Shown here in pieces: positions 22,712 to 61,132 of a DNA stretch of 64,000 bases. Below the pieces are notes generated by a model. That model searched no databases, was not told the origin of the DNA, and saw only the letters and a list, made by a program, of their open reading frames with translations. Numbering within the stretch: position 1 is the stretch's first letter; every line of letters begins with the position of its first letter. The translations under genes and the position numbers were made by a program. The stretch is from Dermacentor variabilis (Eukaryota > Arthropoda > Arachnida > Ixodida > Ixodidae), in assembly GCF_050947875.1 (NCBI RefSeq), contig NC_134570.1, positions 229,199,265 through 229,263,264 on the forward strand, read 5' to 3'.

Positions 22712-22835
22712 ATGCTGACCAAGGCGGACATCCTAGCCGTGACGCTGCTCTTTACGCACCTCAAACCTGAGCAGCAACCGGAGTACTTTGACATCTCGCC
22801 ACCAGGAATTTACAAGGAATACGATTACATCATAG
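22712..22835 (+). CDS. GMC-family FAD oxidoreductase, first coding exon
   Basis: The ATG at 22712 has A at -3 and is the only in-frame ATG after a TGA at 22610. Forty-one codons end in K-E-Y-D-Y-I-I plus a single G. GMC flavoproteins (glucose and choline dehydrogenase relatives) begin their FAD-binding fold with Y-D-[YF]-[IV]-[IV]-V-G-[GA]-G-[ST]-[AS]-G. The exon at 60930 supplies TG to finish the Val codon and then G-G-G-S-A-G. The junction AG|GCAAGT is a strong GC-type donor; reading through instead meets TAG four bases later. The exon is invisible to length-based ORF searches. Weak hydrophobicity near residues 7-15 might mark a secretion signal. Substrate is unknown. Confidence 0.8.
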
Positions 22836-22884
22836 GCAAGTAGGCTTGTTCTTACATCCGCGCTATTGAAGCGTTTGGTGTTTC

Positions 22885-23087
22885 GCGCCGAGCGAAGCCG
22901 CGAGAGGAAATCCCAGCTACACCGGCTGCATTTCGAAAGGCGTGGAATAGAAAAAAAAACAGCTCTCGTGTGCTTTGCATAGGGGGCGCGTTGAAGAACC
23001 CTAGGTTGTCCAAATTAATCCTGACGGCGTCCCCAATAATTATGTCCTGGTTCTGACGCGTAGAAGCCCACAATTTATTTTAGTGTT
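22885..23087 (+). repeat. Diverged tRNA-derived SINE, Ruka-like
   Basis: The segment from GGCTGCATTTCG through GTGTGCTT, GAAGAACCCTAGGT and GACGGCGTCC to AAGCCCAC aligns, in opposite orientation, with the SINEs at 53388-53625 and 56794-57034. It is much more diverged than those copies and its tRNA-like head is no longer clear. It sits only about 50 bp inside the intron. Confidence 0.6.
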
Positions 23088-24715
23088 TCACGTATTTTTT
23101 TCGAGATAAGCCCCTTGAAACGTCATGGATGTGGAATTACAAGAAAAATAAGAAGTCATCGCCATCATGACCGTCATTGAGGACGAAGGCCTTTCCGATT
23201 GAGCTGCAGGTTAGTCTATGTCATACGTGTGCGGCATCTGTGCCATCCCTTAAAGGTTGGCACTCGCATCACCGTGCCCCTCACGACAGTATTTGCGATC
23301 CACTGGCATCCCTTTCTCAAATAGGCCTCCATGCAGTATCTGCCTTGCGCCTTACTCATTCTTCCTTTTAAGCTGGACTACAGTATCAGTAAGGCCTGTT
23401 CGCCGCCTATGATTATCTGGTAGCGTTATGTTTTTTTTTAAATTCTTTTCCGTCGATCGTGGAACGGTCCTTAGCTCGTTCTCAAATTTCCTTGTTCTCA
23501 ATGAATAAGCTGCCAGACATGGAATTCGGCCTGTCTGCTATTTGTGCTACCTCCCGCTTCTATTTGCCTGGAAATTTCCCGCCATTATACAAGCGAGAAC
23601 GTGCATTAGAGGGCGTGGCCCTTTTACGTCAATAAGGCGCAAACAGCGTACTTGCGCGCAGCATATAATTTACCGCTGTACCAAGCGACGGCACAGAGGC
23701 AGCTAAAGCGACGAAGCCACTAAGTTTTTCGCTGTTGTGGCTCACGCTGCCGCCGGGTTCACTGAACATCATTGTAGAGGCTCACGATGCTGGCAGTGGC
23801 GCTGCACAGTTTTTCCGCACTGTGCGCGCGGCTGGTGCGCACGGTACGAATGTGCCTCGTGGATTGTTGAGATTTGTTCTGACCGTGGCCAGCGACATGC
23901 CACAACATGCGCGTGCGCGTGCGCGTGAACGCTACAGAACACTGCGCCAAGCAAGCCGTTAAGTATTCGCCACACAGTGGCCTATCAGTGAGGTCCTAAG
24001 CATGCCAAGCTTTGTAAATGGTGCACAGCATGTGTATTCATTTTCGGAAAAGTCTCATCCCTTGCTTCAAGACAAAAGCTTCTTTTGATGGACTTAATTT
24101 TTAACTTATAGTACTTTGTGGAATGTGATTTGTCTTGTTTATTACTCTGAATTTAGCGACAGCTCCCCGCTTTTGATTTGATTGTAAAGTCATAATGTAT
24201 GGATTTTTGTTATCCAACAGCGCTGCTGCATTTAATTGTAGGTGTGGTGTTCCAGTGAATTCAATGTCAAAAACTAGGTGAGCGCTGTACCTGTAAAAAC
24301 GTGTTTGCATGTTACGTCTGTTTTTATGTCCACGATGAGTGCTCTTTACTGACAAACTTTCTATTACAGCAAAATTCCCAAGCGACAAAGCTTGTTGTGA
24401 GACGACCTATGCTCGAGTCAGGTCGCACTGTACCCTTGGCAAGCCAACTTTACTTCTTTTCGATTAGTCGGCCACTGGTGTCGCAAGACTTCTATGATCT
24501 GCACTCTCCTCAACCCAAATACACTTAGGATTCCAAGCAAATATTGGGCCTCTTTTGAATGCTGAGATCGAAAAAAATATCGCGTTAGGGGCGTGTCCAT
24601 TGAAGTATGCATTTAGCATGCAGTCTATATGATACTTGCATGCGAAATTTGATCAGCCGTGCGCTAGAACTGCATTTCAGCAATGAACGCTACTAGAAAG
24701 CGACATTTTTTTTTA
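23088..24715. other. Intronic sequence without recognisable genes
   Basis: No coding similarity was found. The stretch near 23158-23260 (CATCGCCATCATGACCGTCA, then GGACGAAGGCCTTTCC) faintly resembles the 3' end of RTE copies A and B and may be a decayed RTE tail. The rest, including several short open frames around 23735-23975, shows nothing I can support. Confidence 0.3.
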
Positions 24716-24742
24716 TGTATTTATTTATTTATTTATTTATTA
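24716..24742 (+). repeat. (TTTA)n simple repeat
   Basis: Six to seven TTTA units follow a T-run. It could be the 3' tail of a minus-strand retroelement, because a minus-strand LINE relic lies to the right (25640-26800), but continuity between the two is not shown. Confidence 0.6.
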
Positions 24743-24779
24743 GTAACACACTATTTATTATTACACTGCTTCTTACAGA

Positions 24780-25303
24780 AGGTGTGGTTCAGGATGCAGT
24801 GCCATACACGAATTACGTATTTCGCAATTGCCTTGAATATAAAGACGAATACGTCATAGGGCCGGTGCCAGCGTGCAATGCAATCGTGAGCGTACGTCGC
24901 GAACATATTCTTCGAGGAAAATCAGTTCTGCGGAAGCCCGTACAGTAGAGGAAGGTTCGTCAAATGGAGTGATCCACCCTACTGCAGAAACCCGTATGGC
25001 TTTGCGTGGCAGCTTCGTGCTACGGATTGGTGGAGGACAATTTTCCCATTTCATATTCAGCGAGGTCAAATAAGGCTGCTCAGAAATAAATTTTTTTCGC
25101 TAAAAATATTTTGCTGCTTTTGATCACCACTACTTAGCAAGAGCACGTTAAAAGACACTGCCACCGAAGGAGTAAAGTGCCGTAATTTGCTGCAGGAATA
25201 TTTGCATGAATGTCCCAGGCTCAGCTTGTGTGACACCAACAGTGATGATGATGGCGCATCAGCAGACTTCTCGTGTTCTGATCTGATTTCTCTTACGTCT
25301 TAA
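24780..25303 (+). pseudogene. Possible coding relic, unassigned
   Basis: Three consecutive protein-like stretches occur in different frames. The first is Y-T-N-Y-V-F-R-N-C-L-E-Y-K-D-E-Y-V-I-G-P-V up to a TAG near 24946. The second is H-P-T-A-E-T-R-M-A-L-R-G-S-F-V-L up to 25073. The third, with no ATG, runs 25124-25303 with C-R-N-L-L-Q-E-Y-L-H-E-C-P-R-L and an acidic S-D-D-D-G. Together they look like one gene broken by two frameshifts, but I do not recognise the family. A decayed transposon gene is the likeliest explanation. Chance open frames cannot be excluded. Confidence 0.3.
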
Positions 25304-25563
25304 GAATCGTCTATCAAACCTAAATTCTTTTCTATTGGTTGTCCCTTTTAAAAATTAAGTTTCTATTGATTTCACAGGTATGTAACGTATTATGCTTCCA
25401 AGAAATATTATGAGCAAATTGAGCACGAATTTATGAGCTGAAACACGTACACAGAATGGTAGTAAGACTAATTTTCGCTTCCCAATTGCTGCGCCATTCC
25501 TTTAACCTTGCTACATCAGGCTGTAATTCTGTGACATCGACAGGGCAAGCTATTAGCCTATAA

Positions 25564-25630: not shown

Positions 25631-25639
25631 CCCTTGTGA

Positions 25640-30506: not shown

Positions 30507-30667
30507 TGTTACGTGTGGAAAGACAGACGAAAGATGCTATTTGCACGCTATTTACACTGGAGCCAGGCAGCCAGGCTGACACTCACTTGTGCCAAGGGCA
30601 CCGACCAACTTCTTCGTCGTTCTCGCGGCGGCTCGTCTCTTGAGCATCGCTCGATAATATCGTAATA
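30507..30667 (-). repeat. 3' LTR of Gypsy-3
   Basis: In plus orientation it begins TGTTACGTGTGG and ends CGTAATA. It matches 33039-33193 throughout, except for a small duplication (AGGCAGCC-type, near 30565) that makes it slightly longer. Confidence 0.8.
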
Positions 30668-30703
30668 TTACCCCCCGGCAGCAAAAGCACCGTCGCGGTT
30701 CTC

Positions 30704-31603
30704 TTAAATATCCAAGGTGCATGGAGAGTTGTAGGACTTGCGTCGGGCAACATGGACAATGTCACTGGTTGTCACAGCGGAGAACGTAGTGGGCGTGGCT
30801 GGAACGATTTCATAGGTGAAATCGGTCACTTTGCGTATCACGCGATATGGGCCTGTGCAACAGGAAAGCAGTTTTTCACAAAGGCCGACTTTACACGATG
30901 GTGACCAAAGCAACACGAGGGCGGTGGGCACAAAATGGACATCACGGCGACGGAGGTCGTAGCGTTGTTTCTGCTTATCTTTAGACACTTGTAGACGAGC
31001 ACGCGCAAGTTGGCGAGCATGGTCAGCATGGGCGATTGCATCACGGGCATAATCGCTAGTTGAAGCTGTGGAGGACGGAAGCACAGTGTCCAGTGGTAGC
31101 GTCGGTTCGCGGCCATACAAGAGGTAAAACGGGGAAAAGCCAGCAGTTTCGAGACGGGAAGAGTTGTATGCAAAGGTAATGTAAGGTAGAGCCAGGTCCC
31201 AGTCACGGTGGTCGTCTGAAACGTATTTGGATAGCGTGTCTGTAAGGGCGCGGTTCAAACGCTCAGTGAGGCTGTTCATTTGGGGGTGGCAGGAGGTGGT
31301 GAATTCATGCTGTATTGAGCAGGCACGCATGATGTAGTCAATGACTTTGGCCAAAAAGTTGTGGCCGCGGTCTGTAAGCAATTGACGCTGAGCACCATGC
31401 ATATAAATGATATCATCTAGGAGGAAGTCCGCAACATCAGTTGCGCAACTGGTCGGAAGAGCACGGGTTAAGGCGTAGCGGGTCGCGTAGTCCTCCGCGA
31501 CTGCAACCCACTTGTTTCCTGATGTGGATTCCGGAAATGGGCCGAGAAGGTCCAAGCCGACACGATGGAAGGCTCGGCAGGGATGTCGAGCGGCAGCAGG
31601 CAA
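30704..31603 (-). pseudogene. Gypsy-3 integrase core and C-terminus
   Basis: A 299-codon frame holds the integrase catalytic core: R-V-G-L-D-L-L-G-P-F (first Asp), L-T-D-R-G-H-N-F (second Asp) and H-P-Q-M-N-S-L-T-E-R-L-N-R (Glu). A Y-N-S-S region, L-L-Y-G-R-E-P-T-L-P-L-D and a C-terminal Y-R-V-I-R-K-V chromatin- or DNA-binding segment follow. Gypsy-4 carries the same arrangement. The core looks catalytically intact, but the preceding zinc domain is in another frame, so a frameshift lies near 31600. Confidence 0.82.
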
Positions 31604-32470
31604 CCAGCGGTGAGCTGGGAAGGCTTCTTACGTCGTTGGCAAAGTTCACAAGCGGCGACGTAACGTCGTACGGAACGGGCAAGGCCCGGCCAGAAAAAAC
31701 AGCGACGTACACGGTCATAGGTTCGAGATACGCCGAGGTGTCCTGCCGTTGGTGCGTCGTGAAGCTCTTCTAAAACGGTGGAGCGAAGGTGTTTAGGTAT
31801 TACAAGCAGGAACTCAGAGCCGTCCGGATCAAGGTTACGACGGTACAGAGTACCGTCGCGGAGGACGAAGAGGCGTAGAGCGGCATCGGCCGGAGAGTGT
31901 TCAAAACGGTCGATGAGTGCTCTGATGTAGGCGTCACGGCGTTGCTCGTCGGCGAAATGAAGCAGCTGTGACACAGAGAATACGTAAGCAGCACTGGTAG
32001 TATCGGAGGAGTCAGGATCGTCAACAGGGTAACGCGACAAGCTGTCAGCGTCTTGGCGCAGGCGGCCAGATTTGTACACCACGGAATATGAAAATTCATG
32101 TAGCCTCAAAGCACATCGACCAAGCCGGCCTGTAGGATCTTTTAGCGATGAGAGCCAGCAGAGAGCCTGATGGTCAGTGACTACGGAAAAAGGGCGACCG
32201 TAAAGGTAAGGACGGAACTTCGCAACCGCCCAGACAACAGCAAGGCATTCGCGTTCCGTAATGGAATTGTTGCGTTCCGATGGTGCTAGGAGGCGGCTCG
32301 CATAAGGAATAACGCGATCCTTGCCGCGCTAACGCTGGGCTAAGACGGCACCTATACCATGACCGCTGGCATCTCTACGTAATTCTGTAGGGGCATCAGG
32401 GTCGAAGTGGGCGAGAATGGGTGGTGAGGTTAAAAGAGTGACGAGACGAGAGAAGGCGGCGGCTTCTGCA
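31468..32470 (-). pseudogene. Gypsy-3 RNase H and integrase zinc domain
   Basis: Reading left from about 32440 on the minus strand, P-P-I-L-A-H-F-D-P and [15 protein letters not shown] form the RNase H start (the usual T-D-A reads R-D-A). T-D-H-Q-A-L-C-W-L-S-S-L follows. The frame 32109-31468 continues with D-A-D-S-L-S-R-Y-P, then the integrase zinc domain (H-L-G-V-S-R-T-Y-D-R-V and C-E-L-C-Q-R). A TAG near 32330 breaks the RNase H. Confidence 0.75.
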
Positions 32471-32965
32471 GCCGAAAACAAGCAAATTGAAAGCGTCGTC
32501 GGCGATGCCTTTTAGCACATGTGCTACTTTATCTGCTTCGGACATATTATCGTCAGCTTTACGGCATAGAGCGAAGACGTCGAGGATGTAGGAAACGTAT
32601 GGCTCTGTAGATGACTGAACGCGAGATGCAAGAGCCTTTCTCGCGGCAGCCTTGCGCCCAATGGGGTCGCCGAATAGTTCCCGTAGCTTTTCTTTGAAAC
32701 TGCCCCAACTGGTTATTTCGTCATCATGCGTTTGGTGACACACGCGTGGGGTGCCGCCGAGATAAAAGATGATATTGGCGAGCATAATGGTTGGGTCCCA
32801 CCTGTTATTAGCACTGGCGTGTTCATACAGCTTGATCCAGTCGTCCACATCCTGTCCCTCCAGGCCAGAGAACACACCTGGGTCACGGTGTGGGGCAACC
32901 GTGACGATTGGAGCAGTCGGACAAGCCGAAGCCGTTGCAGAGGCGGGCTCGTCACCGGGAGGCAT
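32470..32965 (-). pseudogene. Gypsy-3 Gag, truncated at a deletion junction
   Basis: The minus-strand frame from the ATG at 32965 has D-P-G-V-F-S-G-L-E, W-D-P-T-I-M-L-A-N-I-I-F-Y-L-G-G-T-P-R-V and a capsid-like region up to D-A-F-N-L-L-V-F near 32480. There it changes abruptly into sequence that, in Gypsy-4, lies between RT and RNase H. The Gag therefore lacks its nucleocapsid end. Its N-terminal two thirds match the Gag fragment at 644-1083. Confidence 0.82.
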
Positions 32966-33038
32966 GGTGACAAGCTCGGTGTGCCGACCACTTCGCAGTT
33001 CCGTGGTGAGGACGAGGATCGCTAACCTCCACCAGAAA

Positions 33039-33193
33039 TGTTACGTGTGGAAAGACACAGAGGGAAGATGCTATTTACACGCTATTTACATTGGAGCCAG
33101 GCTGACACTCGCTCGTGCCAAGGGCACCGACCAACTTCTTCGTCGTTCTTGTGGCGGCTCGTCTCTTTAGCATCGCTCGATGATATCGTAATA
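33039..33193 (-). repeat. 5' LTR of Gypsy-3
   Basis: In plus orientation it begins TGTTACGTGTGG and ends CGTAATA. Just inside (complement of about 33020-33038) TCTGGTGGAGG is the probable primer-binding region. Confidence 0.8.
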
Positions 33194-35500
33194 ATATATA
33201 TCTATTTAAATTCATCCCTTTAATAGATTTATAAAATGCACTCGACTAATGGCCCCCTTCTCCTTTTCTGAGCCGGTAGGTTCCAGCGCGTTAAATTTCC
33301 TCATCACCATCACGATCATCATCATGATATCTTTAAAGGCACTTTCTTCAGTTGTGTATGAAATAATTTTAGCCACAGTAGCCGATCATATTGCAACCAC
33401 GTATTTATTTTTCGAAAAGAAATGCTGCTCTAGCAACTTGAACTGTAAGTGCCATCACTTTTGAGACGCACACGAAATTGCCACGAGAGTGAGAGGTCAA
33501 GGTAGGGAGGTGAAACATACGCACGTATGGTTTGCGACCCACGCAGGGTAGACAGGTTGAAGGATGATGGAAAATAACAAAGGAAGAAATGGCCACGTCA
33601 CTGAGTGCCTCGCTGAAATGACGTTGAAGCGCGTAGGCCTGCAGGTGCTACATCAGCGCACGTACTGCATAGACGTCAGTAGCGTCGCCTCAGCAACGCC
33701 ATAATAGTCCACTTTTGGTTACGCACAGCAGACCGCCCCAGCTGCAGATGGCAGATTACGTTCCTCAGCGCGTGGCTCGAATTTTAAAACAACATGCACT
33801 TTCAGCTCCTCTTCTACACAGGCGTTGTACAATTACATCTCATTTTCTGCTGTCATCGACTGCGCTTCCGCTCCGTTAGTACCCATTCTGTAACTGTAAT
33901 GATCCACCAGTTACCTACCCTACGCATTAAATGGCCTGCCCAGCTCCATTCTTTTTTCTCTTACCGTCAACTAGAATATCGGCCAGCTCTCCTCTCTTGT
34001 TGACATTTCTCGCGAAACTATGCCGCGCTGCGCGCAACCGGGCTATTGGACTCGCGCATTCGGCAGCAAATCGCGATATCTCAATGCATTGTTATTGCCG
34101 AAGTCATGTTAAAAGAAGTTCATAATGAACTTCGTAAATTGGGCTGTGAGTCGAATCGGCTTCTTTTACCGGCTTTTTATGAAAATAAACATGCCTTATA
34201 AGGCCAGCCAACTGGACTGTTCTCATCAACTGCCGCTACCGGCTACTGCCCAGTTTTTGTGTGTGTTTATTAAAAGAAGGTCACCTATCGCTGCCTTCTA
34301 CTTGCTTTTCTCTGCTTGGGCTTCCTGGGTCTCTCAGATGGACTTGAGAGCTAGACGTCTGGCGATACGAAAAAAATGTACGCATTCTCACGGCACTGCA
34401 AGAACACAATGGAATACGACACACCGACCCATTTGCGGTCCATGTGGAGTTTATGAGCCCAAACGCATTCTCGCTTGAGGAATCATTGTGCTTTATTGAA
34501 CAAAATTTGGATGGACGCGCATCACTACGACAGCGCGCCGGCGAGGAGGCAGAATGTCATTTCTGACTCCGCGTTTAGATTCTTTGACTGCGGCCTGAGG
34601 TGCCTTCTTACCACTATAAGTGAAGCATCAGGGAACCAAAATTTTGCGATAGCCTGCGCACAGTGCCGCACCATACGCGCGCTGAACCGGCCTACGTGCG
34701 ACCATGGAACAGCCGTTCGATGTGTTCGCAGCTACGCTCTGTGGAGCCTTGCCGATTCTTGCAGCGCATCCGCTAACCTTCACTTCCCTGCGCTTCTCGC
34801 GCGCACATCTAAGATACGCCTGCGGTAGAGAGGATTCGTTCCCTAAGTCAAAGCAGCCGCTTCTTTCCCATCTTCCAGGATGAAGCGTCGGAAGGCCGGC
34901 GCACGGTGCTGAGGGCAGCAAAATGCACACATTCTACGTAACGCTCTATCAGCACGTGTATTGAGGCACATCTGTGCAGGTGTGCATGTACCTCGAACGC
35001 GCTCTGCTTAAAAGACCTCGTGCTGTCGCGAGTACTGAGAGGAACAAGCAACAGTTAAGCAAGGGGTTACTGAACACGAACTATGCATTCATAACGTACG
35101 TTCTACGTGCCGCAAATGCACCATAAGCGCTGTCAAAAGCAGGAATCACTCACCTGCAAGGCGTTCATTGTACAGATTCTGAAACGCATAGGTTTCGGCC
35201 TGCGATGGCACGTTAGCATGATTCCGCCAATGAGGGCAAAATTTCCCCCAAATATTCCTTCGTCCGTTGCCATTGCCGTGGCGCGGTACATTTCGTGCAG
35301 GGTTGCATGCGCGTTCATTTCACGAACTTTAGTTCCTCCTGTCCCACCTGGCCGCATCAACATCCGGGAGAGCAGGGTGCAGATAACGCAGTGCAACAAA
35401 ACACGGAGACCAACGCAAACTTGTCCGCACGGCGCCTTTGGCACCGTACGAAACCTACGGTTGCGTAGTATGAAGGATCACCGTGGCGCGCTGCTCAAAG
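33194..35500. other. Intronic sequence with a decayed RTE tail
   Basis: Read on the minus strand, 33795-33990 contains W-A-G-H-L-M-R-R and W-I-I-T-V-T-E-W-V-L-x-x-R-K-R-S-R in shifting frames. That is the C-terminal signature of an RTE-type element, more diverged than copies A and B. The remaining sequence (33194-33790 and 34000-35500), including several short open frames, has no feature that I can support. Confidence 0.4.
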
Positions 35501-35735: not shown

Positions 35736-35897
35736 TGTATCGGGCATGCGCTGTCGGCGCTACCTTATCAGGACAGCACTGATATCACGCGTGTATCTGA
35801 CTATTTAAGTGCGTGCCAATAAACCCCTCGCTGCTTCTTGTTCCTGTCATCGTGTAGTTGCCTCCATCTTTACCAGACAGACGTCGCACACGTTACA
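35736..35897 (+). repeat. 5' LTR of Gypsy-2
   Basis: It starts TGTATCGGGC and ends CGTTACA. A CTATTTAAG TATA-like sequence and an AATAAA signal lie inside. It pairs with 39022-39183 without gaps. Confidence 0.85.
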
Positions 35898-35952
35898 TGG
35901 TGTCAGAAGTGGGCACTTCGGGTCGAAGCGTGGATCCGGCAGAGCCCCAACG

Positions 35953-36611
35953 ATGGAACTACTGAAGGCACCGCCACCCTTGCAACTTACCGGCAATCTC
36001 TCTGAGCAATGGAAGCGCTTCAAACAGAAGTTTGACTTGTTCATAGTGCCAACACGACAAAGAAGCAAACCCGCACGGAAGCTGCAAAAGCGGCACTCCT
36101 TCTGAGTGTGGCTGGTGACAAAGCACTTGACGTGTTCAACACGTTCAAGTTTGAAGCACAAGAATCCAATGAATACTACGCAACAGCCGTTGAAAAGTTC
36201 GAGTCTTACTGCTCTGAGGTAAGCAACGAAGTGCATGAGCGATATCTGTTTCGCTCGAGGAAGCAGGCAGATGGGGAACCGTACGAAAAATTTCTTCGTG
36301 ACCTAAGAAAGCAAGCTGGGCAGTGCAATTTCGGAGAACAGCGTGATTCAATGATCCAGCATCAAATAGTGTTCGGCACGAATAACCCAAAGTTGCGCGA
36401 AAAAATGCTTCGCGAACAACAGTTGACTCTAGTGAAGGCGGAAGAATTTTGCAAGGTCGCCGAATCTGTGGCGCAACGAAACGAGGTCTGGAGGGCCACG
36501 GACAGCCACACTGACGCTATTGCGGGGCACGCAACTACACCGAAAAGCAGAAACGCCCAAGATGGCAACAAGCCACAAATCTCTCCGCCACAGTCCAGTT
36601 CTTTGTCGTAA
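35953..36611 (+). pseudogene. Gypsy-2 Gag
   Basis: The ATG at 35953 starts M-E-L-L-K-A-P-P-P-L then W-K-R-F-K-Q-K-F. A frameshift near 36070 moves the frame to 36108-36611. That part holds the capsid (Y-E-K-F-L-R-D-L-R-K-Q-A, C-N-F-G-E-Q, L-R-E-K-M-L-R-E) and parallels the Gypsy-1 Gag. The frame stops at 36609-36611. Zinc knuckles expected next are absent, replaced by a jump to a protease C-terminal fragment (K-H-G-S-Q-A-I-L-G-L-E-A-S). Confidence 0.78.
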
Positions 36612-38340
36612 AACACGGCAGTCAAGCCATACTAGGACTGGAAGCGAGTGAAGCCTTGGGCCGTTTTCAACGCACAGGGGCCACTAAGCGCTCAACAGAC
36701 TGCGAAGCAGTGACGAATTCCCAGCACCTCTTCCTGCTTGAAGGCTGCTTGAAGCCATTAGGCTTCAAGCAGCCTAATGGCTGCTTGAAGCAACCATACA
36801 GCATGATCCTGCAGCCAACAGCGGTTCCTGTCGTTCAACCAGCGCGCCGTATTCCTCTGTGCCTGCGGGGCCCTCTTCAGGAAGAGCTGCGAAGACTGGA
36901 GCGCGAGGCCATCATCGTAAAGAGAACGACCCCACGGACTGGGTAAGCCCTTTGGTTACCGTCAAGAAAAAGGACGGCAGAATTAGAATTTGCAAGGACC
37001 CCCGGAAAATTAATGAGAACATAAAAAGAGAACACTTCCACCTCCCAAGGCGCGAGGATATGGAAGGAGAATTGGCTGGCGCAACTGTATTTAGTTGCTT
37101 GGACGCAAACTCCGGCTTCCACCAGATCGCACTTGACGAGCAGACGTCGAAAATATGCACTTTTGCTACTCCTTTTGGCAGGTACCGTTACCTCCGATTG
37201 CCCTTCGGCATCGCCTGAGCGCCTGAAATTTTTCAAAGGACGATGACTCAAGTATTTGAGGGCCTTCCCGGTGTACATGTGTACATTGACGATATTTTGG
37301 TGTGGGGAGCAAACAAACAGCCGCATGACCAGAGACTGGTTGCGGTCTTGAAAGCGGCCGAAAAAGCCGGCTTAACGTTCAACGCAAAAAAAATGTCGGT
37401 TTGGTATTACGGAAATACAATTCCTGGGCGATATCATTGGACGTGACGGCATCTCGCCAGACCCAAAACTTATCAAAAGCTTGCTTGAAACGCCGGAACC
37501 CAAAACCAAACGTGATGTTCAGCGCATGCTCGGTGTAATCAACTACTTTGCAAAGTACGTGCCACGGCTTTCTGAGCGGACTGCACTTCTCCGAGCGCTT
37601 ATCGAAACAGACGCAGTATTTGAGCGGACTGAAAACCACAGAAAAGTGTGGAAAGGTATCACTCAAATTCTAACCATGAAACCAGTACTCGCCATCTTTG
37701 ATCCCCAAAGGCAGTCTAAAATAACATGTGATGCATCAAAAGATGGCATGGGTGCAGCGCTCTTGCAGTGTCACGATGGCGATAAGTGGCACCCAGTGGC
37801 ATATGCATCCCGTGCGCTAACACAAGCTGAACAGCGTTACGCGCAGATTGAAAAGGAGACTCTCAGCATTTCGTTCGGCTGTGAGAAGTTTCCCCACTTC
37901 GTGTACGGGCACGAAGTTTTTATTGAAACTGACCATAAACCGTTGCTATCTATTGCTGCGAAAGGGATCTGCGACATGCCTCCCTGCCTTCAGAGGTATT
38001 TTTTAGACTTCTGAAATATCATTTCATTTTGCAGTACCCACCAGGAAAACTCCTCGTCTTGGCCGACATGCTGTCAAGATCGGCTCCGGCTAGTCACGAG
38101 GACATCGCTGGCGCCGCTGACGACGTGCAAGTGCACGCAATGCATGTCCTGGGCTATTTGGTCGCGGGCGCTACGCGACAGAAGCTGGTGCAAGAAACAG
38201 CGCGTGACGGTTACTTGAGCACTGTCATCTCCAATTTGTCAAGCGGTGAGAGCCTGCAGGGTGAACTCAAAGCCGTTGTCGTCAGAGCTTTCCGTCGAGG
38301 ACGGTATATTGCTGAAAGGAACAAAAGTGGTCATACCTAA
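36612..38340 (+). pseudogene. Gypsy-2 protease tail, reverse transcriptase and RNase H
   Basis: Protease remnant and linker lead to an overlapping-hairpin rearrangement at 36742-36791. RT then appears: K-K-D-G-R-I-R-I-C-K-D-P-R, V-F-S-C-L-D-A-N-S-G-F-H-Q-I, a TGA at 37216-37218, and the catalytic Y-I-D-D-I-L-V (37282-37302). A frameshift near 37420 leads to the frame 37481-38014 with the RNase H T-C-D-A-S-K-D-G-M-G-A-A-L-L-Q, I-E-K-E-T-L and T-D-H-K-P-L. A further shift leads to L-A-D-M-L-S-R-S (38050-38075). Active-site residues are mostly kept, but the frame is broken many times. Confidence 0.8.
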
Positions 38341-38990
38341 AAGCATGCGACGTGAAATCCTAGGATGAATTCATACTGGGCACCTAGGATTGCAGAAATG
38401 CAAAGAAAGAGCACGACGTTTGGTTTTTTGGCCTGGGCTCAGCAGCGATTTATCCCTGCTGATTAGTTGCTCTACTTGGAAGTTTTCATACAAGCAACCG
38501 AAAGAACCGTTACTCATGCACGCAATCGGCATTATGCGCATGGGTTCGAGTTGGTGTAGGCATTTTTTCTTTTGGGGGAAGTTCGTACGTCGTAGCGTTT
38601 GACGCGCATTCAAACTTCCCGGAAGTCCAGAAGCTCCAGGACACCACTGCAAGAGCAACAATTTCCGCACTTAGCGCAATGTTTTCCAGGTATGGCGAAC
38701 CTCTGGAGGTGTGCACCGACAACGGGCCGCAGTTTTCAAGTTATGAATTTGCAGAATTCGCAAGAAAATGTGACTTCGCTCATGTCACATCCAGTCCCCG
38801 CTTCCCACAGTCCAACGGTCTGGCAGAAAAAGGCGTACAGATCGTGAAACGCCTCTTGAAGAAAAGTGAAGACTCACGCGCCACGTGCTATCTCCTCCTA
38901 GGCCGACGCCAGTCCCAAGAAGGTCGGGTCGCACCAGTAGGCCACCGCAGCGGCTTCGGTACGACGGGGCCTTTAATCAAGTAACCTGAA
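38341..38990 (+). pseudogene. Gypsy-2 integrase remnant
   Basis: The zinc domain survives only as scattered pieces near 38370-38480. The catalytic core is partly preserved: V-C-T-D-N-G-P-Q-F-S-S and S-P-R-F-P-Q-S-N-G-L-A-E-K in frame 38679-38984 supply the second Asp and the Glu. The first Asp segment is damaged. The C-terminal domain is cut short about 30 bp before the 3' LTR. Confidence 0.72.
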
Positions 38991-39021
38991 CTGTTGTGCT
39001 TCTTCGTTACCCATCAGAGGA

Positions 39022-39183
39022 AGTATCGGGCATGCGCTATCGGCGCTACCTTATCAGGACAGCACTGATATCACGCGTGCGTCTGACTATTTAAGTGCGT
39101 GCGAATAAACCCTTCGCTGCTTCTTGTTCCTGCCATCGTGTAGTTGCCTCGATCTTTACCAGACACACGTCGCACACGTTACA
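39022..39183 (+). repeat. 3' LTR of Gypsy-2
   Basis: It begins AGTATCGGGC (first base changed from T) and ends CGTTACA, followed by CAGTG. A purine-rich CAGAGGA lies just before it. Confidence 0.85.
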
Positions 39184-39399
39184 CAGTGAGCGTCACTGCG
39201 CGTGGTCGCCGCGATGGAGTCTCCCGAGCCGGCTTCTTGCGTGAAAGGTTGGCAGACGCTGAGAGTAAACTATGTGAAATATGTTCTTATAGTGGGCTTC
39301 CTGTATAAACAAATGGAGCATAACAGAATGAAGCCTCAATGCAGCGATCGCACGGGTTCACAGCGACCGACTGCGCTTCTGTATTCATGTCCGCGCACA

Positions 39400-42718: not shown

Positions 42719-44135
42719 TTGCTTCCGCATGCTTTCTGCAGGTCTTGTGATATAGATGGCATTCAAATCTCACCTGTAAAATTTGTCCTCACTCTAATAG
42801 CACCAGTATTAACTTATATTTATAACATTGCCTTATCAAGCGGGTCCTTTCCAAAGCAGATGCAGAAATCTAAGGTAATAGTATTATATAAAAGCGGTGA
42901 TAAAAATAGCATGTCAAGTTACCGACCGATTTCCATTTTACCGCTTTTTTCGAAAGGGTTGGAGAAAATTATTGAAAAACGGTTAATAAAATTTTGCAAT
43001 AGGTTTAAATTGTTATCAACAGCACAACATGGCTTTTTGCGAGGTAAATCTACCGAATCAGCTTTATTGTCTCAAAAAGAAATTATTCTTAACGCTTTTG
43101 AAAATAAAGAATTGTGCGTCGGCGTCTTCATTGATTTCTCAAAGGCTTTCGATCGCCTTAATCATAATACCTTACTTAAAAAATTAGACCTCTATGGCAT
43201 ACGTGGCACTCCACTTGAACTACTGAAATCGTACTTGCGTCATCGTGTACAATGCGTTAAAATAGGGCCACATATATCTTCATTTCAAACTATTACTGCT
43301 GGTGTCCCACAGGGTAGTATTTTAGGACCTCTACTTTTTATTTTATATATAAATGACCTTGTTTTGACTGTTAGCCAGCCGAAATTTGTAATTTATGCTG
43401 ACGATGCAAGTTTATTTTTTTTTCACAGGTAGTTCCATACAATCTCTGGTTTCTGTTACTAACAATGCTCTTGATAAACTTAAGGAATGGTCTGAAGCAA
43501 ACTCTACTCATAAACACGAAAAAAACTAAAGCGGTTCTATTCAGCACAAGACAGTTTCCCACTCAACCCGATATACATATATACATAGGCGATTCACGTG
43601 TCCAGTTTGTAGACACTGTCAAGATTTTGGGGGTAATTTTTAGCAAGACAATGAGCTGGGACACTGAAGTTCAGTTCATTATGAGAGTAAACTGGCAACG
43701 TGCACCGGAATTCTCGCAAAATTTCGGCATTTTCTGCCCGAACGCATAAAATTAATTATTTACAATGCGCTGTTTGTATCCCACCTAAATTATTGTTTCT
43801 TGGTTTGGGGTACTACCACTAAAACAAATAATAATAAAATATACATGGTTCAAAAGAAAGCTGTACGCTACATTGCGAACGTAGATTACCTTGCTCACAC
43901 TCAGGAACTGTTTGCTCGTTACCAAATTTTGCCGATTAATACCGTGTACGAATATTACTTAGCATTAAAATACAAGCGTTGTATCCAAAATAACCAGCTA
44001 GTTTTCTTGAATTACCCTGTCTCAGTCAAAGTCTTTCAGAATACTCCTTTCGCAGAAAAGAAATTTGGCACATTCCCTTCTCCCGTACAATGTACGGGCA
44101 ACAGATGCTCCGACATAGCCTGCCCACTGTTTTGA
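42719..44135 (+). pseudogene. LINE-delta reverse transcriptase
   Basis: Frame 42719-43432 has V-I-V-L-Y-K-S-G-D, Y-R-P-I-S-I-L-P-L, Q-H-G-F-L-R-G-K-S-T, F-I-D-F-S-K-A-F-D, G-V-P-Q-G-S-I-L-G-P-L and the catalytic Y-A-D-D-A, then stops just after (T-run slippage near 43417-43425). Frame 43465-43749 continues with N-T-K-K-T-K and L-G-V-I-F. A third frame, 43750-44135, gives L-N-Y-C-F-L-V-W-G-T and Q-K-K-A-V-R-Y-I. Two frameshifts therefore break an otherwise recognisable RT. Confidence 0.82.
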
Positions 44136-44589: not shown

Positions 44590-45290
44590 TCGAAATCCTC
44601 CATTGACGCTCCCAAGGAACCAGAACTTGATGTTCACGTCGACGGTGTCTATTTGACAGCGTTAATAGATACTGAAGCCCAGGTGTCCATAGTGAGTTGT
44701 AACCTCCGTCGCCCACTGAAAAGGTTCCCACGCCTCCTACTACTCGAGCCGTGCGCGTGGCCGATGGCAGCACTGTTGACGTCACCGGAATGTGTACTTC
44801 CCGTATAAACATCGCCGGTAGCCACGTTCCTATTCTTCTTGCAGTGCTAACCAATTGTCCCCTTGACCTAATCCTCGGACTCGGCTTTCTTACGGCGCAC
44901 TCAGCTTTGATCGACTGTTCTGCCGGGACCCTTTGCCTCGAACTTCCTCTACTCGCATATATTCGTGCCGAACTGCCGAACAACTTTAGTGCGACCGCAT
45001 TCGTCCACCTGCCGCCTAAAGCCTTGACTTTCGTAGATTTGCTATCATCTTTTCCTGTGCCCGATGATGATTACGTCGCCACACCTGTTCCTAATGTCCT
45101 TTTGATGCGCAATATCAATGTGTCCCACTCCGTCTTCACCGTCGCCGATAACCGGACATGCCTCCCCGTCGTCTACTTTGGCCTGATATAGGAAGTTCTA
45201 GACCAAGGCATATCAGTTGCAACGCTCTGTGCTATCGGAGATGGCACCGTCACGACGTTTTCCGTAGACGTCTGCTAAGATTCTTCACCA
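44590..45290 (+). pseudogene. Gypsy-4 protease and linker
   Basis: Frame 44587-44808 reads A-L-I-D-T-E-A-Q-V-S-I-V-S. The aspartic protease signature is D-T-G, and here Gly is Glu (GAA at 44674-44676), which should disable the active site. A frameshift near 44725 leads to frame 44751-45191 with L-I-L-G-L-G-F-L and S-A-L-I-D, the second half of a retropepsin, and the linker to RT. The frame ends at TAG 45189-45191. Confidence 0.8.
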
Positions 45291-45332
45291 TGTCCACAGG
45301 ATGCTATTTTCTCTGACAGAACATTTCGTCCG

Positions 45333-46202
45333 ATGATTGCCGCGGACCTGCTGCCTGAACATCCAGCAGCTCTGTGTCGCCTTTTGGTTTCGTACCACGA
45401 CATCTTCGATCTCAGCAATCGTCAATTGGGCCAGACTTCAATTGTTAAGCATCACATAAATACTGGTGATCTCAGTCCTATTCATCGCCTGCCATGTCGA
45501 CTTTCTGCTTCAGAGCGTAAGGTTATTCAACATGAAGTGAACAAGATGCTTGCCAAAGGCATTGTTCAACCTTTGCCGAGCCCTTGGGCGTCGCCCGTGG
45601 TGCTTGCTAAAAAGAAAGATGGCGCATGGCGTTTCTGCGTAGATTATCGACATCTAAACCGCATTACCAAGAAAGACGTCTACCCCTCGCCTCGCATTGA
45701 CGACGCCCTCGATTGTCTCCATGGTGCCAACTACTTTCCATCAACAGACCTGCGGTTTGGTTATTGGCAGATTTCTGTGGATGAAAAAGACACAGAGAAG
45801 ACCCCGTTCGCCACTCCTGATGGTCTATATCAATTCAAAGCCATGCCATTCTGTCTATGCAACGCCCGATCAACGTTCGAACGTATGATGGACTCTCTGT
45901 TTCAAGGGTTCAAATGGTCAACATGTCTGTGCTACCTAGACGACGTTCTCGTATTTTCGCCCACATTTGAGACACACATTGAGCGCTTATCAGCCGTTCT
46001 TCAAGTCTTCCGCGAGGCTGGGCTCCAGCTAAATTCATCGAAGTGTCACTTCGGTCGTCGGCAGTTTACAGTGCTGGGCCACCTCGTCGACGCTTCCGGT
46101 ATTCAACCACACCCGGAGAAAATTCGTGCTGTCACATCTTTTCCAGTACGTCAGTCTGTCAAAGACGTCCGAAGTTTTGTAGGACTCTGCCCCTACTTCT
46201 GA
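45333..46202 (+). pseudogene. Gypsy-4 reverse transcriptase
   Basis: An open frame of 289 codons covers S-P-W-A-S-P-V-V-L-A-K-K-K-D-G, F-C-V-D-Y-R-H-L-N, T-D-L-R-F-G-Y-W-Q-I, A-T-P-D-G-L-Y-Q-F and the catalytic Y-L-D-D-V-L-V (45934-45954). V-L-G-H-L-V and F-V-G-L-C follow and the frame stops at TGA 46200-46202. The next base triplets resume the expected sequence, so the TGA is a late nonsense change. The RT active site looks intact. Confidence 0.85.
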
Positions 46203-47110
46203 TGCTTCGTTCAAGACTTCGCAGTGATTGCCCGACCTCTTACTGATCTTCCGAAGGACGTGCCGTTTATGTGGAGCCCCGCTCAAACTGCCCTGTTTGT
46301 CCACTTCACCAACATTCTCACCACGCCCCCTATACTTGCCCACTTTGACCCGTCCTCTCCTACAGAGGTGCGTACCGATGCCAGAGGTCACGGTATCGGA
46401 GCCGTCTTAGCCCAGCACCAACAGGGTCAAGATCGCGTTATCGCATACGCTAGCGGCCTCCTCACAGCAGCGCAGCGCAACTATTCGATCACAGATCGTG
46501 AATGCCTGGCTCTCGTCTGGGCGGTTTCCAAATTCCGCCCGTACTTGTATGGCACGCACTTCTTCGTAATCACGGACCACCACGTGCTCTGCTGGCTTTC
46601 CTCACTCAAGGATCCTACCGGTCGGCTTGGTCGCTGGGATCTGCGGCTGCAGGAATATTCCTATGCAGTAGTGTACAGGTCGGGCCGATTACATCAAGAC
46701 GCAGACTGTTTTTCACGCTATCCAGTGGACGAACCACCCAGCGACCCTGACCCCGATACCGACGCTTGCGTTTTCTCCGTTTCTCAGCTGCTACATGTTG
46801 CCGACGAGCAACGCCATGATGCCCCTTTGCGCACCATCATTGATGGCTTGGAATCTTCGCCTTCTGATTCGTCCCTTCACGTGTTTGTTCTCCGGGATGG
46901 TGTATTATACCGCTACAATGTACGCCCCGACGGTCCTGCCCTACTCCTCGTCATTCCTAAACACTTACGGTCAGCCGTTCTCCAAGAACTTCAAGATTTA
47001 CCAACGGTAGGTCACCTTGGCGTCTCCCGCAACAACGACCGGATTCGCCGACGCTTTTTTTGACCAAGCCTTGCCCGCTCCGTCCGGAAATACGTTGCGG
47101 CGTGTGAAAA
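46203..47110 (+). pseudogene. Gypsy-4 RNase H and integrase zinc domain
   Basis: Frame 46224-47063 has [23 protein letters not shown] and T-D-H-H-V-L-C-W (RNase H catalytic region), then D-A-D-C-F-S-R-Y-P and the start of the integrase zinc domain (H-L-G-V-S-R-N-N-D-R-I). A shift in the T-run at 47056-47061 leads to a second frame in which the two Cys of the zinc domain are only partly visible. Confidence 0.8.
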
Positions 47111-48084
47111 AGGCCAGCGCCGAAAAAGACCATCGACGTTCCCTACCGGTTGCCTTCAACCGCTCGACATTCCTTCGGAGCCGTTCTTTCGCATTTTCTT
47201 GGACTTACTTGGCCCTTTCCCTCTATCCACGTCTGGCAACAAGTGGGTCGCTGTGGCGACAGATAGCCACGCGCTACGCCATCACCAGAGCACTTGCAAC
47301 AAGCTGCGGCGCAGATGTCCCCGACTTGCTTTTACGTGACGTGATTCTGCAGCATGGTGATCCACACAATTAAACTGCTCACACAGTGTGGTCAGACATT
47401 TCTTCGTCAAGTCATCGCCAACATCCTGCAGTCCTGCTCCACCAAGCACAAGCTGACTACGTCTTACCATCCACAGACTAATGGTCTCACTGAGCGTCTC
47501 AATCGCATCCTAACAGACATGCTTGAAAAGTACGTCTCGTCCAACCATCCTGATTGGGACCTTGCCCTACCAGATGTCACTTTTGCATATAATATTTCGC
47601 GTGACGACACTGCTGGTTATTCCCCGTTTCTGATGTTCGGCCGAGAACCCACATTGCCACTGGACGCATCCCTTCCATCCGCCGCAACAGAGACCAGCGA
47701 GTATGCACTTGACGCCATCCCCAGTGCAGCCCAAGCACGCGAAATTGCCAGCGCTCGCCTCCTGGCCTCTCAAGACAAGCAATGGCACTTGTTCGATCGG
47801 CAACACAGAGACGTCCACTTTTCGCCTGGGTGTCTGGTACCCCTGTGGTCCCCGACTTGCCACGTTGGCCTGTCAGAAAAACTCCTGTCTCTGTACACAG
47901 GCCCATATCGAGTGCTGCGGGCCATGACTCCTGTTACGTACGAAATCGCCCCAGTCAGTACCAGTGCCTCATCTGCCCCAAATTTCACTGACGTCGTGCA
48001 TGTCACACGCCTCAAGCCATACTACTCTCCTGTTACCACCGATATTTCGACGCCCCGTGACGGTGCTTCTGCCGCCGTGTGCAA
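47111..48084 (+). pseudogene. Gypsy-4 integrase core and C-terminus
   Basis: The first catalytic Asp segment (F-F-R-I-F-L-D-L-L-G-P-F, near 47180-47220) is followed by a frame change near 47360. The normal second-Asp block L-T-D-R-G reads L-T-Q-C-G, so that catalytic Asp is lost. H-P-Q-T-N-G-L-T-E-R-L-N-R supplies the Glu, then F-A-Y-N and L-M-F-G-R-E-P-T-L-P-L-D, and a C-terminal Y-R-V-L-R-A-M. The frame passes straight into the LTR and ends at 48220. Confidence 0.8.
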
Positions 48085-48255
48085 TGATACATGCATGTTG
48101 CGTGTTTCTTGTGGACAATGCACGCGGGCTCCCGACGAACACGACGAACGCTCTCTGGCTCTCGAGCTGTTGGCTGAACTGGCCAGCGCTGCAGTTACCC
48201 CTTGTAAATGTACTTTGTAAATAGTCTCCAGTCTTAATCCTTCGTTCGCGTAGCA
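48085..48255 (+). repeat. 3' LTR of Gypsy-4, same family as Gypsy-A LTRs
   Basis: It starts TGATACATGC and ends CGTAGCA, about 171 bp. The integrase frame runs into it, as in the Gypsy-A copy. Confidence 0.8.
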
Positions 48256-57046: not shown

Positions 57047-58860
57047 GGACCGCTCGGGTGTTCTATATACAAGTGCGCATGGGGGCTATACATGGACAAC
57101 ATAAACATGGCCCTTCTCTGTCCGGTGAAATTAGTGCTTCGTTCGAAGAACGACCACGAGGACGGGCCATAATGTTTACCAGTGAAAACATGGAAGAAAC
57201 ACGGTTCCCATGACACGTCCCAATGTGCGGCCGCTTTCTTCCACGCAACAGAGGGAAGTTCGGTGCGCACCTCCGCTGAAAGCAGCTTCTATGCCTTGCA
57301 TTTCGTGTGCGCGGTATAGTTTTGGGCTCAACGCTGCGTTTAACTGGCTGCTCGAGCTCTCTGTTAATTGCAATAAATCGGGTCTAAACTATCTCTTCGC
57401 ATCTGTGGTGGCTAATAGCAGTCACGTGCCATCAAAAATTTATATCTTGAGGGACGTGTGAATGATCGCAACTGCTCCTTACGTCGCCCCACGGGAGCAT
57501 GAACCTATTTAAATAAATAAATAAATAACAAGACAGACAGATTACGGTTGTCTTTTCAGCTATACTGTACTCTATTGGTGAGACATACTGCGCATTTGGA
57601 GGTGTTTATTTTTTCTCCATAAGGAATTTCTTGGGCATTTGTCTGGGCCACACACACGTGCGTGGAAGCTCGGACGCGATAGGTGCGGCAATAGCACGGG
57701 CCACTAGGAATCGCCCCCCAAAGGCTTTCGCACTTCCGCCCCCGGACGCAGCTCTCACCGCCTGAAGAGACGAACGCCACGACTTCGTGTTTGTTGGCAC
57801 GATGTCACGGTGCCCACACGACCACTGAAGAGCAGTCATTGCTTACAATATGGAGGACAAGACCCGAACTATTCTGAAACAGCGGAAAACGAGACAAGCA
57901 CACGCCATGTCACCCGGAGACAAACTTGCCGCCGTTATAATTCTTACGGGCAGCGCGCACGCATGTCCACACCGGGCGTTTCAAAACTGACGTGCAGTCG
58001 GTCAACGGTGACGAATGTAAACGAAAGCTGCGATTGCGTGCGCAAGATTTCGCAAAGTTTGGCGCGCATACTCCGGCAACTACGGCCGAACAATCGTTCG
58101 TATCTAAAGTGAGCGCTCGTGTATGGGCGAATCTCCATGAGAATAGAGGGATCAATCCGGGAACAAACCGATAATAAAACGACTTTTCTTTGTTAAACAG
58201 TTTTCGCGTTCACGGCGGATTAAGAGGCCACCTTCAATTTTTTCCGTAGATTTCATGAGAGATGATTATCGGATGCGATAAGCGGCAGCTGTTGACATTC
58301 TAGAGCTGCTTCACAATGGGCTACGAGGGACATCGCGGGGCCGAGGAATGTGCGCCAATGTTGATCATATTGTTTATCGAAGAAGCAGTAGGGGCAAATT
58401 TCTGAGTGAATATGTTCATGGTTACACAGGCCCCGTTTAAGTTGAGCGCTGGCTTTTGCTGCCACGAAATATAGTGGAAAATGAGCGAAAGTAATAAAAT
58501 AAGGAAACGTTCTCTTTTCACAGAATTATTTTGACTCAATGTCTGGGAAGAAAATTGTTGCAATCATTTATAAGGCTCCAATTTACAACATGAACGCCGA
58601 CAGGAATACGATTACTTTTTTATAATGCACGCAAAAACTGAAATAAGAGCATTAAAATGTCAAAAGAAAACAGAAGAATCAGGTGTCGTGCTACAACAAT
58701 ATTTCCGTATAGATATACATGCTCCATATGCAAGTGTTAACATGCTTTTAGTTTGCGGATTCTACAAAGGATGACATGTTGAACACCAAGATATTTGAAT
58801 ATGTTAGGAATGCAATGCAACTCCTGCTGTTGTCGCGGTAGCACTTGGTAATCATAAGAC
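57047..58860. other. Intronic sequence without recognisable genes
   Basis: An (AAAT)n run lies at 57508-57529. Overlapping frames on both strands between 57550 and 58180 show no family features. Confidence 0.35.
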
Positions 58861-58875
58861 CACACACACACACAC

Positions 58876-58936
<61 letters not shown>

Positions 58937-58946
58937 TATAGATATT
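58861..58946. repeat. (CA)n(TA)n microsatellite
   Basis: About seven CA units pass into about thirty TA units, then GATATA variants. The compound structure is typical of a mutable microsatellite. Confidence 0.95.
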
Positions 58947-59079
58947 TTCTTCACTAGCCCTTCACATAATGACACAATAATGGATTTATGGATTTAAGAA
59001 AACCGGCCTTCTCTAGACGATTGAGTTGTTGTGAAAAGCTCAGATTGGCGAGGTAGTGGCATGACTTTCTAAATAAAGA

Positions 59080-59830
59080 AAGGGGAAGCACCCCAAAGAC
59101 ACATCGAAGAAGTTAAAAAGTACGCAGTCATCCCTTATGTACATCAGATGGGGCATGGGCTAAAAAAGACAGCCATGAAATATGGTGTTCAAGTAATATT
59201 TTCAGCAAATAATTCCTTAAACAAGATTTGCAATCTTGTCAATAGACCTAAACAGGCGTCCAAAGCCACATGCCACGTCAAACACTCGGGGCAGCTTGTG
59301 GCATGCTCGGTGGGAGTGGTCTACGTCATTACACTTTCGTGCGGCAAAATGTACTTTGGGCAGACGGGTCGCTGCCTTAACATCCGCCTTAGGGAGCACC
59401 AAGGTGCGATCAGGAATGAAACAGGTTCCAATCTGGCCGCGCATTGTAGAGTTTGCTCATGCAAACGCATGTTTGAACAAACGGAAATATTGTATAAAAA
59501 TATGCATCAAATTAAACGCGAGATTGTAGAGGCCTACTTCATGCATGTGAACTCAGGCGCATGCGTCAGCCAGACTTCTATCACTCTGCAGGATAACGAA
59601 ACTGATTTTTTTAATGCCAAGATAGGCTAACACCCTCGTAAACGTCCCTTTACATGTGCTCACATTTTCTGTATATTATAGTCCGTTGCTTGAAACAATA
59701 AACCAGTTGTTAGTCTGCGCTCGTGTTGTGTACTTCCTCTCGTCCTTCGTCCGGGCTGCGCTGCCCAAACATAGGAACATGTTCAATCACCAACTCGCCC
59801 AGCTTGCCGTCTTAAAAAAGGTACGGATGT
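59080..59830 (+). mobile_element. Penelope-like element, 3' part with GIY-YIG endonuclease
   Basis: From about 59085 the frame reads H-I-E-E-V-K-K-Y-A-V-I-P-Y-V-H and continues to a TAA (about 59628-59630). The GIY-YIG-type core is G-V-V-Y (59313-59324) and Y-F-G-Q-T-G-R (from 59352), followed by R-L-R-E-H and the helix with R-E-I-V-E-A-Y. Penelope-like elements carry RT followed by this endonuclease, which opens target DNA; RT is absent, so the copy is 5'-truncated. The 3' region contains AATAAACC and a CCCAAAC...CATGTTCAATCACCAAC stretch. The endonuclease frame of about 160 codons is uninterrupted, so the insertion may be fairly young. Confidence 0.8.
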
Positions 59831-60467
59831 AAGGACACGGACAAAAAGAAAACACAAATTCGGCTTGGCTAGGTCTCTGTTCCCTGCCGGCTTTTTCGGC
59901 AGCAGGTATCAAAATCTGCACAGTGCGTTAATACGATACATGAATTTGTATATAAGTACATAGCAAATAACCTAGCAAAATAATATACAGACAAAGCATG
60001 TGCGTTGAGAGAACCTGTAAGCTCAAGGTTATTTTGGCACAGCAGCAAACATTCACATCCATGGATAAACACTCATTTCATACGATATTCAAAAACACAT
60101 TAACACAAACATAAGCCAATTTTCGCTTAAAGGGAACTTCAATAGAAATACATCTATGAATACATCACTGTGCACTTGCAGCTTAAAATCCATGTTGATC
60201 AGAAAAAGAAAACAACAAAAACGCAAGTGCACTCATGTAAATAAAAGTATGAACGACAAGTTAGGACAAGGAGATCTTTCTGACCGCCCAGCTACCTGAA
60301 CATTGCCCTGACCCATGAGTCAGGCTCATGATGATCTTTGTTCTTAGCCGTGAGCAATGCAAAGCCCACTCAAGAGCTAGAATAACGAACCAATGTAACG
60401 TGGTGCAAATAAAACGGATGTGTGAAAAAAATCATTTCTTTAAAGCAGCATTTTAGGATGATATACA
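59831..60467. other. Intronic sequence, unassigned
   Basis: No coding or repeat signal that I can name. Short open frames are present only. Confidence 0.3.
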
Positions 60468-60790
60468 AGGTGTTCTTTTTTAGCTGCACCAAATTTTTTC
60501 AAGATTGCCTATGGCAGATAGGACAATTTTAATCCTTGATCTAAATTACTCGACGAGGCGGCCATTCTATGAGAAATCAAAATTTTCAGTTAAATAAGTA
60601 ACATAGTTAGGGTAACTAACTTTTTCATTCATTGCTTTACGCCACACATTTCAACCTAAGAAGTATTGCCGCAGAGTTGGCATGGCGTATCAACTTGGAA
60701 CGAATTCTGCGGACATTACCAAGTGTTCGTCGATATACGTTGGCGTTGCAGTGACATTTTTAGAAACCCCTGTTTTATGCATCGAATCAC
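60468..60790. repeat. Probable interspersed repeat
   Basis: ACAAGGTGTTCTTTTTTAGC, then CAAGATTGCCTATGGCAGAT and CATTGCTTTACGCCACACAT resemble, from memory, a common tick repeat that starts with a GTGTT-type end. Boundaries and class are not certain. Confidence 0.35.
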
Positions 60791-60929
60791 AAAAGTAACT
60801 CTCCGAAGCAGTCGCTTTGTTAATCAAAACAAAATTAAGCAGACAAAAAAAAAGAGACACTCGAAATGGCTAAACGATGGTTAAGCGTGCTGCAGTGGCG
60901 CCTCGCTGACCGTTCGCCTCGTTCGGCAG

Positions 60930-61132
60930 TGGGCGGCGGCTCGGCGGGATCGGTGCTGGCGAACCGGCTGTCCGCGGAGCCGTCGACGCGGGTGCTGCTG
61001 CTCGAGGCGGGCGGCCCGGAGGACACGGTGACCGACGTGCCCTTCTTCACCACCGTCAGCCAGGGCTCGGACATTGACTGGGCCTTCTACACCGAGACGC
61101 AGGGGAACTGCGGATTCGCCACCGTCAAGCAG
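60930..61132 (+). CDS. GMC-family FAD oxidoreductase, second visible coding exon
   Basis: The 203-bp exon follows a pyrimidine-rich tract and CAG (60927-60929) and ends CAG|GTAGG. TG completes the Val codon from exon 1, then 67 whole codons follow: G-G-G-S-A-G-S-V-L-A-N-R-L-S, V-L-L-L-E-A-G-G (end of the second beta strand, Glu contacting the FAD ribose), D-V-P-F-F, and D-W-A-F-Y-T-E-T-Q before the junction. The expected next block (the W-P-R-G-K-x-L-G-G-S type flavin site) is not in the remaining 2.9 kb. The two exons code about 110 of the roughly 550-650 residues usual in the family. GMC enzymes oxidise alcohols or sugars using FAD. Composition is markedly GC-rich compared with the flanking sequence. 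Confidence 0.9.

Follow-up and report, generated by a model that had tools for sequence, protein, structure and literature searches.

The 5′ end of a GMC-family oxidoreductase gene in the tick Dermacentor variabilis, with two exons flanking a probable 38-kb GC-AG intron

Two coding exons of one gene

The stretch of DNA investigated here, 64,000 nucleotides of contig NC_134570.1 from the tick Dermacentor variabilis (referred to as the window), very probably contains the 5′ part of a host gene encoding a flavin adenine dinucleotide (FAD) oxidoreductase of the GMC family, ~652 residues long, whose exons 1 and 2 are joined across a 38,094-bp phase-1 GC-AG intron. We assign a probability of about 0.96 to this reading. 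Coding exon 1 (22712-22835, + strand, 124 bp) begins with an ATG at 22712 and comprises 41 codons plus a G, the first base of codon 42; the encoded residues form a hydrophobic stretch at the N-terminus, a linker and, with YDYII, the first beta strand of the FAD-binding site. The Val codon 42 (GTG) is divided 1+2 over the junction. Its remainder opens coding exon 2 (60930-61132, + strand, 203 bp), which continues with GGGSAGSVLANRL..., i.e., the dinucleotide-binding loop, and extends to Gln109. Joined, the two exons amount to 327 bp or 109 codons, free of stops and ending in ...CGFATVKQ. This exon pair had been proposed by an earlier, sequence-only reading of the window, and its coordinates, start codon, phase and 38-kb distance were all borne out. 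The accompanying statement that one host gene spans the window is slightly loose: the GMC gene has its start at 22712 and leaves the window at 64000, and exon 3, which was absent from the window when searched by tblastn with 120 GMC proteins, lies with the rest of the gene past that position. The intron following exon 2 is in phase 0 and has the donor CAG/GTAGGA (here and below, a slash marks the exon boundary). A putative TATA-like sequence, ttatataggc, is located at 22210-22219 (+), ~500 bases before the ATG.

Evidence for the pair comes from a protein of Dermacentor andersoni (P0121 in our set; 652 aa, from nr), which is called “glucose dehydrogenase [FAD, quinone]-like”, a database label that we use without any assignment of substrate. 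The joined 109 residues match it with 98% identity over 100% of their length (E 1.6e-63). In the reverse direction, tblastn of P0121 against the window returned exon 1 with E 2e-20 (41/41, residues 1-41) and exon 2 with E 7e-36 (66/68, residues 42-109), the only two differences being Gly/Ala exchanges in exon 2. The 120 GMC proteins (240-727 aa), searched against the whole window, revealed neither a further GMC exon nor a second GMC gene, their best match elsewhere having an E of 0.029. Given these values and those of P0121, chance is excluded as the source of the two matches. Beyond the counterpart of exon 2, P0121 continues with RDLWIQGKVLGGG.... Two further proteins have the same joined N-terminus, P0122 with 92% and P0123 with 70% identity. 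Their longest contigs measure 4,204 and 3,197 bases, respectively, which is too short for such an intron and gives the joined exons indirect transcript support; these contigs, whose source tag ‘lgn’ we take to stand for Logan assemblies, are probably assembled transcripts. In IMG/VR, the exon 2 peptide gave 50 pattern matches, 0 of which were confirmed.

Given the long interval and the non-GT donor of the exon at 22712, one could suppose that the true first coding exon belonging to exon 2 lies elsewhere within the 38 kb, and that the exon at 22712 is an unrelated or relict copy. We regard this as extremely improbable, because the two exons reproduce the beginning of a 652-residue protein with only two differences, and because the tblastn search with the 120 GMC proteins detected no alternative upstream exon in this interval. 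Hardly more credible is a pseudogene in which exons 1 and 2 are intact and the damage lies further on. The position of exon 3 and its successors outside the window, as well as the many retroelement remains in intron 1, would be compatible with such decay, but two substitutions per 109 residues relative to the protein of another tick, the lack of any frameshift or stop, and usable splice sites speak against it.

A 38-kb first intron with a GC donor

Intron 1 (22836-60929, + strand) starts at ATAG/GCAAGTAGG, i.e., with GC rather than GT, and ends in ...GGCAG/TGGGCGG. The sequence-only reading had stated that the splice signals agree. This holds for the acceptor and the phase, whereas the GC at the donor of exon 1 had been overlooked. 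The GC lies within AG/GCAAGT (22834-22841) and the terminal AG at 60928-60929, the features by which we classify the first intron, from its sequence, as a U2-type GC-AG intron. In a splice trial covering 180 donor/acceptor pairs (donors GT or GC within 22760-22899, acceptors AG within 60800-60999), the combination of the GC at 22836 with the AG ending at 60929 reached the best score, 556, close to the self-score of 564. The seven rows listed after it led to products with extra residues, and all except one had a stop, among them the runner-up (score 539). No GT donor near exon 1 yielded the right product. Among the five best GT rows listed, four had a stop, and in the fifth, which pairs the GT donor at 22840 with the acceptor ending at 60885, 16 additional residues separate the strand from the Val-Gly loop.

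AG/GCAAGT is the typical strong context of GC donors, and the ortholog models of Rhipicephalus microplus and Ixodes hexagonus, compared here as proteins only, appear to break at this donor as if the gene finder had encountered no GT. Both observations, the second indirectly, argue against an ordinary GT-AG intron in which the donor is truly GT and the base at 22837 results from faulty assembly or belongs to a rare allele. We consider this alternative unlikely, yet it deserves more weight than those discussed above, since AG/GTAAGT would match the consensus perfectly and GC donors make up less than 1% in model organisms (PMC7072748). Long introns are known in Ixodes scapularis (PMC4748124). The gene itself is already present in databases and, its long tick intron included, is ordinary; only the GC donor and the repeated failure of annotation at one junction are mildly unusual. 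Literature searches for GMC oxidoreductase or glucose dehydrogenase in ticks yielded no paper on a tick GMC gene, judged by title or the start of the abstract. Searches for ecdysone oxidase and for glucose dehydrogenase [FAD, quinone] in Dermacentor found none, and one for glucose dehydrogenase, Rhipicephalus and GMC gave none on ticks by title among the matches listed.

Family membership and predicted structure

The joined exons carry the N-terminal beta-alpha-beta FAD-binding motif, YDYIIV-GGGSAGSVLANRL...VLLLEAGG, in which G43, G45, G48, E67, A68, and G69 do not vary across 44 aligned sequences including P0121. The joined peptide matches 39 distinct PDB sequences at E <= 0.001, and it aligns over the exon junction in the three PDB alignments shown. 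P0121 contains both Pfam domains of the family (GMC_oxred_N, E 1.2e-49; GMC_oxred_C, E 2.5e-35), and its H531, presumably the catalytic His, is invariant in the 44 sequences as well.

The structure of P0121 predicted from the same alignment has a mean pLDDT (predicted local distance difference test) of 87.3 and a pTM (predicted template modeling score) of 0.87, with a confident body, but low values in residues 1-30 (means per block 54, 55, 44) and near the C-terminus. A helix of low confidence spans residues 4-17, and the first FAD-binding strand corresponds to residues 36-42. According to this model, intron 1 interrupts the codon for the final residue of the strand, the rest of which comes, like the helix, from exon 1. 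The best matches of the model among solved GMC enzymes are 8rpf (E 8.3e-52), fatty acid photodecarboxylase and the choline oxidase 4mjw (E 4.4e-50). An N-terminal hydrophobic stretch was found in eight of nine relatives scanned for hydropathy, the exception being P0131, which is without exon 1. Seven of the nine also possess a C-terminal hydrophobic stretch (mean ~2 or more over 15 residues), the values being lower in P0131 (1.57) and P0133 (1.13; own core maximum 1.63). We read the N-terminal stretch as a probable signal peptide and the C-terminal one as perhaps a glycosylphosphatidylinositol-type or tail anchor.

In the gene as we propose it, the FAD-binding Rossmann fold would receive its first beta strand from exon 1, which also holds the start codon and the probable signal peptide, and its glycine-rich loop together with the next helix from exon 2. 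The 38,094-bp intron between them, presumably enlarged by retroelements, would be spliced out to join both. The product would be a flavoenzyme, either secreted or tethered to a membrane, and may oxidise a sugar or an alcohol via the usual GMC active site.

Several points weigh against this proposal. The gene past exon 2 lies outside the window, and an intact downstream coding sequence is not in view. The GC donor belongs to a rare class, a sequencing error at 22837 is possible, and we infer the splicing of intron 1 in this tick from its sequence. In the predicted structure, the N-terminal helix has low confidence, with a pLDDT of ~55 in residues 1-20. Finally, the 109-residue piece alone stays below the Pfam GMC models, with just two weak matches under the cut-off. 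The assignment to the GMC family, which the sequence-only reading had made from the motif and which holds, is thus based on the full-length relative P0121 and the PDB matches.

The same junction in other tick proteins

It had also been forecast that the short first exon would lead to mis-annotation of the gene with a wrong start. In a tree of 27 proteins that we chose from 318 (P0134 fills 49% of its columns), P0121 groups with eight others in one clade (support 98/98); of the nine, seven are named as tick proteins and two, from transcript-sized contigs, are unnamed. Counted as representatives of 90%-identity clusters, in which intact members may hide (P0121 stands for 27 sequences), one of the seven annotation-derived proteins of this clade, P0121 of D. 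andersoni, is intact at the junction and six are faulty; both proteins from transcript-sized contigs are intact. The faults differ from protein to protein. P0134 of R. microplus begins with exon 1 and then skips the strand and the glycine loop, P0124 of I. hexagonus reads past both sides of the junction, and unrelated letters replace exon 1 in P0131 of I. scapularis and in P0130 of I. persulcatus, which is labelled partial. P0244 of I. pacificus begins inside exon 2, four residues short of its end. The N-terminus of P0242 of D. silvarum is similar to an integrase of retroelements (rve at E 0.0023, which is below the Pfam cut-off) and runs into the later portion of the GMC enzyme.

Taking all 35 tick-named GMC proteins together, paralogs included, 26 are intact at the junction and nine are faulty (P0002, P0004, P0006, P0124, P0129, P0130, P0131, P0134, and P0214). 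Of these, P0002, P0004, and P0006 are fragments owing to a search that favoured short proteins; they lie outside the nine-member clade, so that they enter the count of 9/35 but not that of 1/7. P0244 and P0242 stem from a separate search, whose other tick-named rows were viewed in part, and are not among the 35. The tree has eight of the nine faulty proteins in its nearest clades, and P0214 is a more distant paralog outside it. The forecast therefore came true for most annotation-derived orthologs within the clade, but not for the closest one, which is correct in D. andersoni, and for only about a quarter of the tick-named proteins overall. Besides the shortness of the exon, part of the trouble may lie in the GC at the donor, with gene finders expecting GT.

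For anyone working with these sequences, the consequence is practical: the exon that encodes the signal-like stretch as well as the first FAD-binding strand is missing, replaced or corrupted in most annotation-derived members of the clade, and enzymes expressed or compared on the basis of such predicted models would be broken proteins. Annotators can see where to look from the exon pair with its GC donor.

The faulty I. hexagonus model also bears on the age of the intron position. Where P0124 reads through the two sides of the junction, it has YVI-GKPLC... and ...RFA-VGGGS, and the window reads YII-GK-stop-AC and RSA-VGGGS at the same two places. The GK following the strand and the A preceding VGGG, present in both, show that the intron position is common to this tick and to Ixodes, i.e., to a prostriate tick. 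The dinucleotide at the Ixodes donor can be either GC or GT as far as the protein goes, as GGC-AAG and GGT-AAG both encode Gly-Lys. It is conceivable, although we think it rather doubtful, that the GC donor is conserved across hard ticks, that together with the length of the intron it turns the first exon into a slow or regulated splicing step, and that it causes tick annotations to lose this exon. If this were true, this clade of tick GMC enzymes as a whole would mostly be represented in databases by proteins unable to fold as drawn.

In P0129, a D. silvarum paralog, ~75 extra residues are situated exactly at the junction (residues 42-117) with the frame kept; they constitute either a cassette exon or an error of the gene model. 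This insert had no match in the window. The N-terminus of P0242 gave two weak matches in the window, both upstream of the gene, at 6970-7050 (E 0.003) and 14204-14365 (E 0.69). With matches this weak for the one and none for the other, we do not claim a shared insertion.

Retroelements and other features of the window

Intron 1 contains the remains of several retroelements. Two are probable long terminal repeat (LTR) retrotransposons: one at 30569-33196 on the - strand, with flanking direct repeats of 102 nt that are 93% alike, an integrase domain in the open reading frame (ORF) 30704-31603 and other ORFs that look gag-like by eye, and one at 35737-39188 on the + strand, flanked by 166-nt direct repeats with 94% likeness and carrying an RNase H domain in ORF 37481-38014. 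LTR-retrotransposon-like coding remains follow at 44751-48220 (+), with RVT_1 in ORF 45333-46202 and other ORFs judged by eye, and a reverse-transcriptase fragment of non-LTR appearance by eye is located at 42719-43432 (+; RVT_1, E 4.5e-29). The retroelement stretches at 32015-32435 and 46315-46735 are oppositely oriented, and their 421-nt arms are 73% complementary; judging from this complementarity, the arms could pair in the long pre-mRNA. At 59148-59630 (+), an ORF of 160 aa has a GIY-YIG-like look (VVYVITLSCGKMYFGQTGRCLNIRLREH), which we take to be typical of Penelope-like elements; a Pfam scan of this ORF returned nothing at E 0.001. An AT-repeat microsatellite of 70 bases is present in the intron at 58876-58945.

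Upstream of the GMC gene, a further probable LTR retrotransposon occupies 3531-7914 (+). It has 165-nt flanking repeats that are 96% alike, reverse transcriptase and RNase H in ORF 5097-6506, and an ORF at 6520-7698 that appears integrase-like by eye; its ORF 3606-4823 had no Pfam match. On this upstream side there are several other reverse-transcriptase pieces, including ORFs within 10833-13441 (RVT_1 in 13108-13962), where a tandem duplication of ~1,326 bp has copies 88-90% alike. A tRNA-Ser (anticodon TGA) was predicted by ARAGORN at 1301-1373 (-), and Rfam identified a tRNA there, too.

Comparison with known GMC genes and enzymes

The nearest known counterpart is the D. andersoni protein, with which the product of the joined exons shares the start codon and the residues at the exon boundary besides its 98% identity in residues 1-109; apart from the two Gly/Ala exchanges in exon 2, this is a comparison of proteins, which carry neither donor dinucleotide nor intron length. 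At a greater distance stand the solved GMC enzymes. The predicted fold of P0121 matches an alcohol oxidase (8rpf), fatty acid photodecarboxylase (6zh7/5ncc) and choline oxidase (4mjw/2jbv) over 573-615 alignment columns, but with 22-32% identity among the 50 matches listed, their substrates are not transferable to the tick protein. Insect GMC genes (GLD, GOX and the cluster in the Flo-2 intron), as described in PMC1891103, belong to the same family and have the same FAD-binding N-terminus. According to that source, one mosquito GMC gene has the FAD-binding part on an N-terminal exon of its own, which is used with alternative C-terminal exons. It further places most GMC genes of four insects in a cluster inside the Flo-2 intron, whereas in the tick it is one GMC gene that is itself split by a 38-kb intron.

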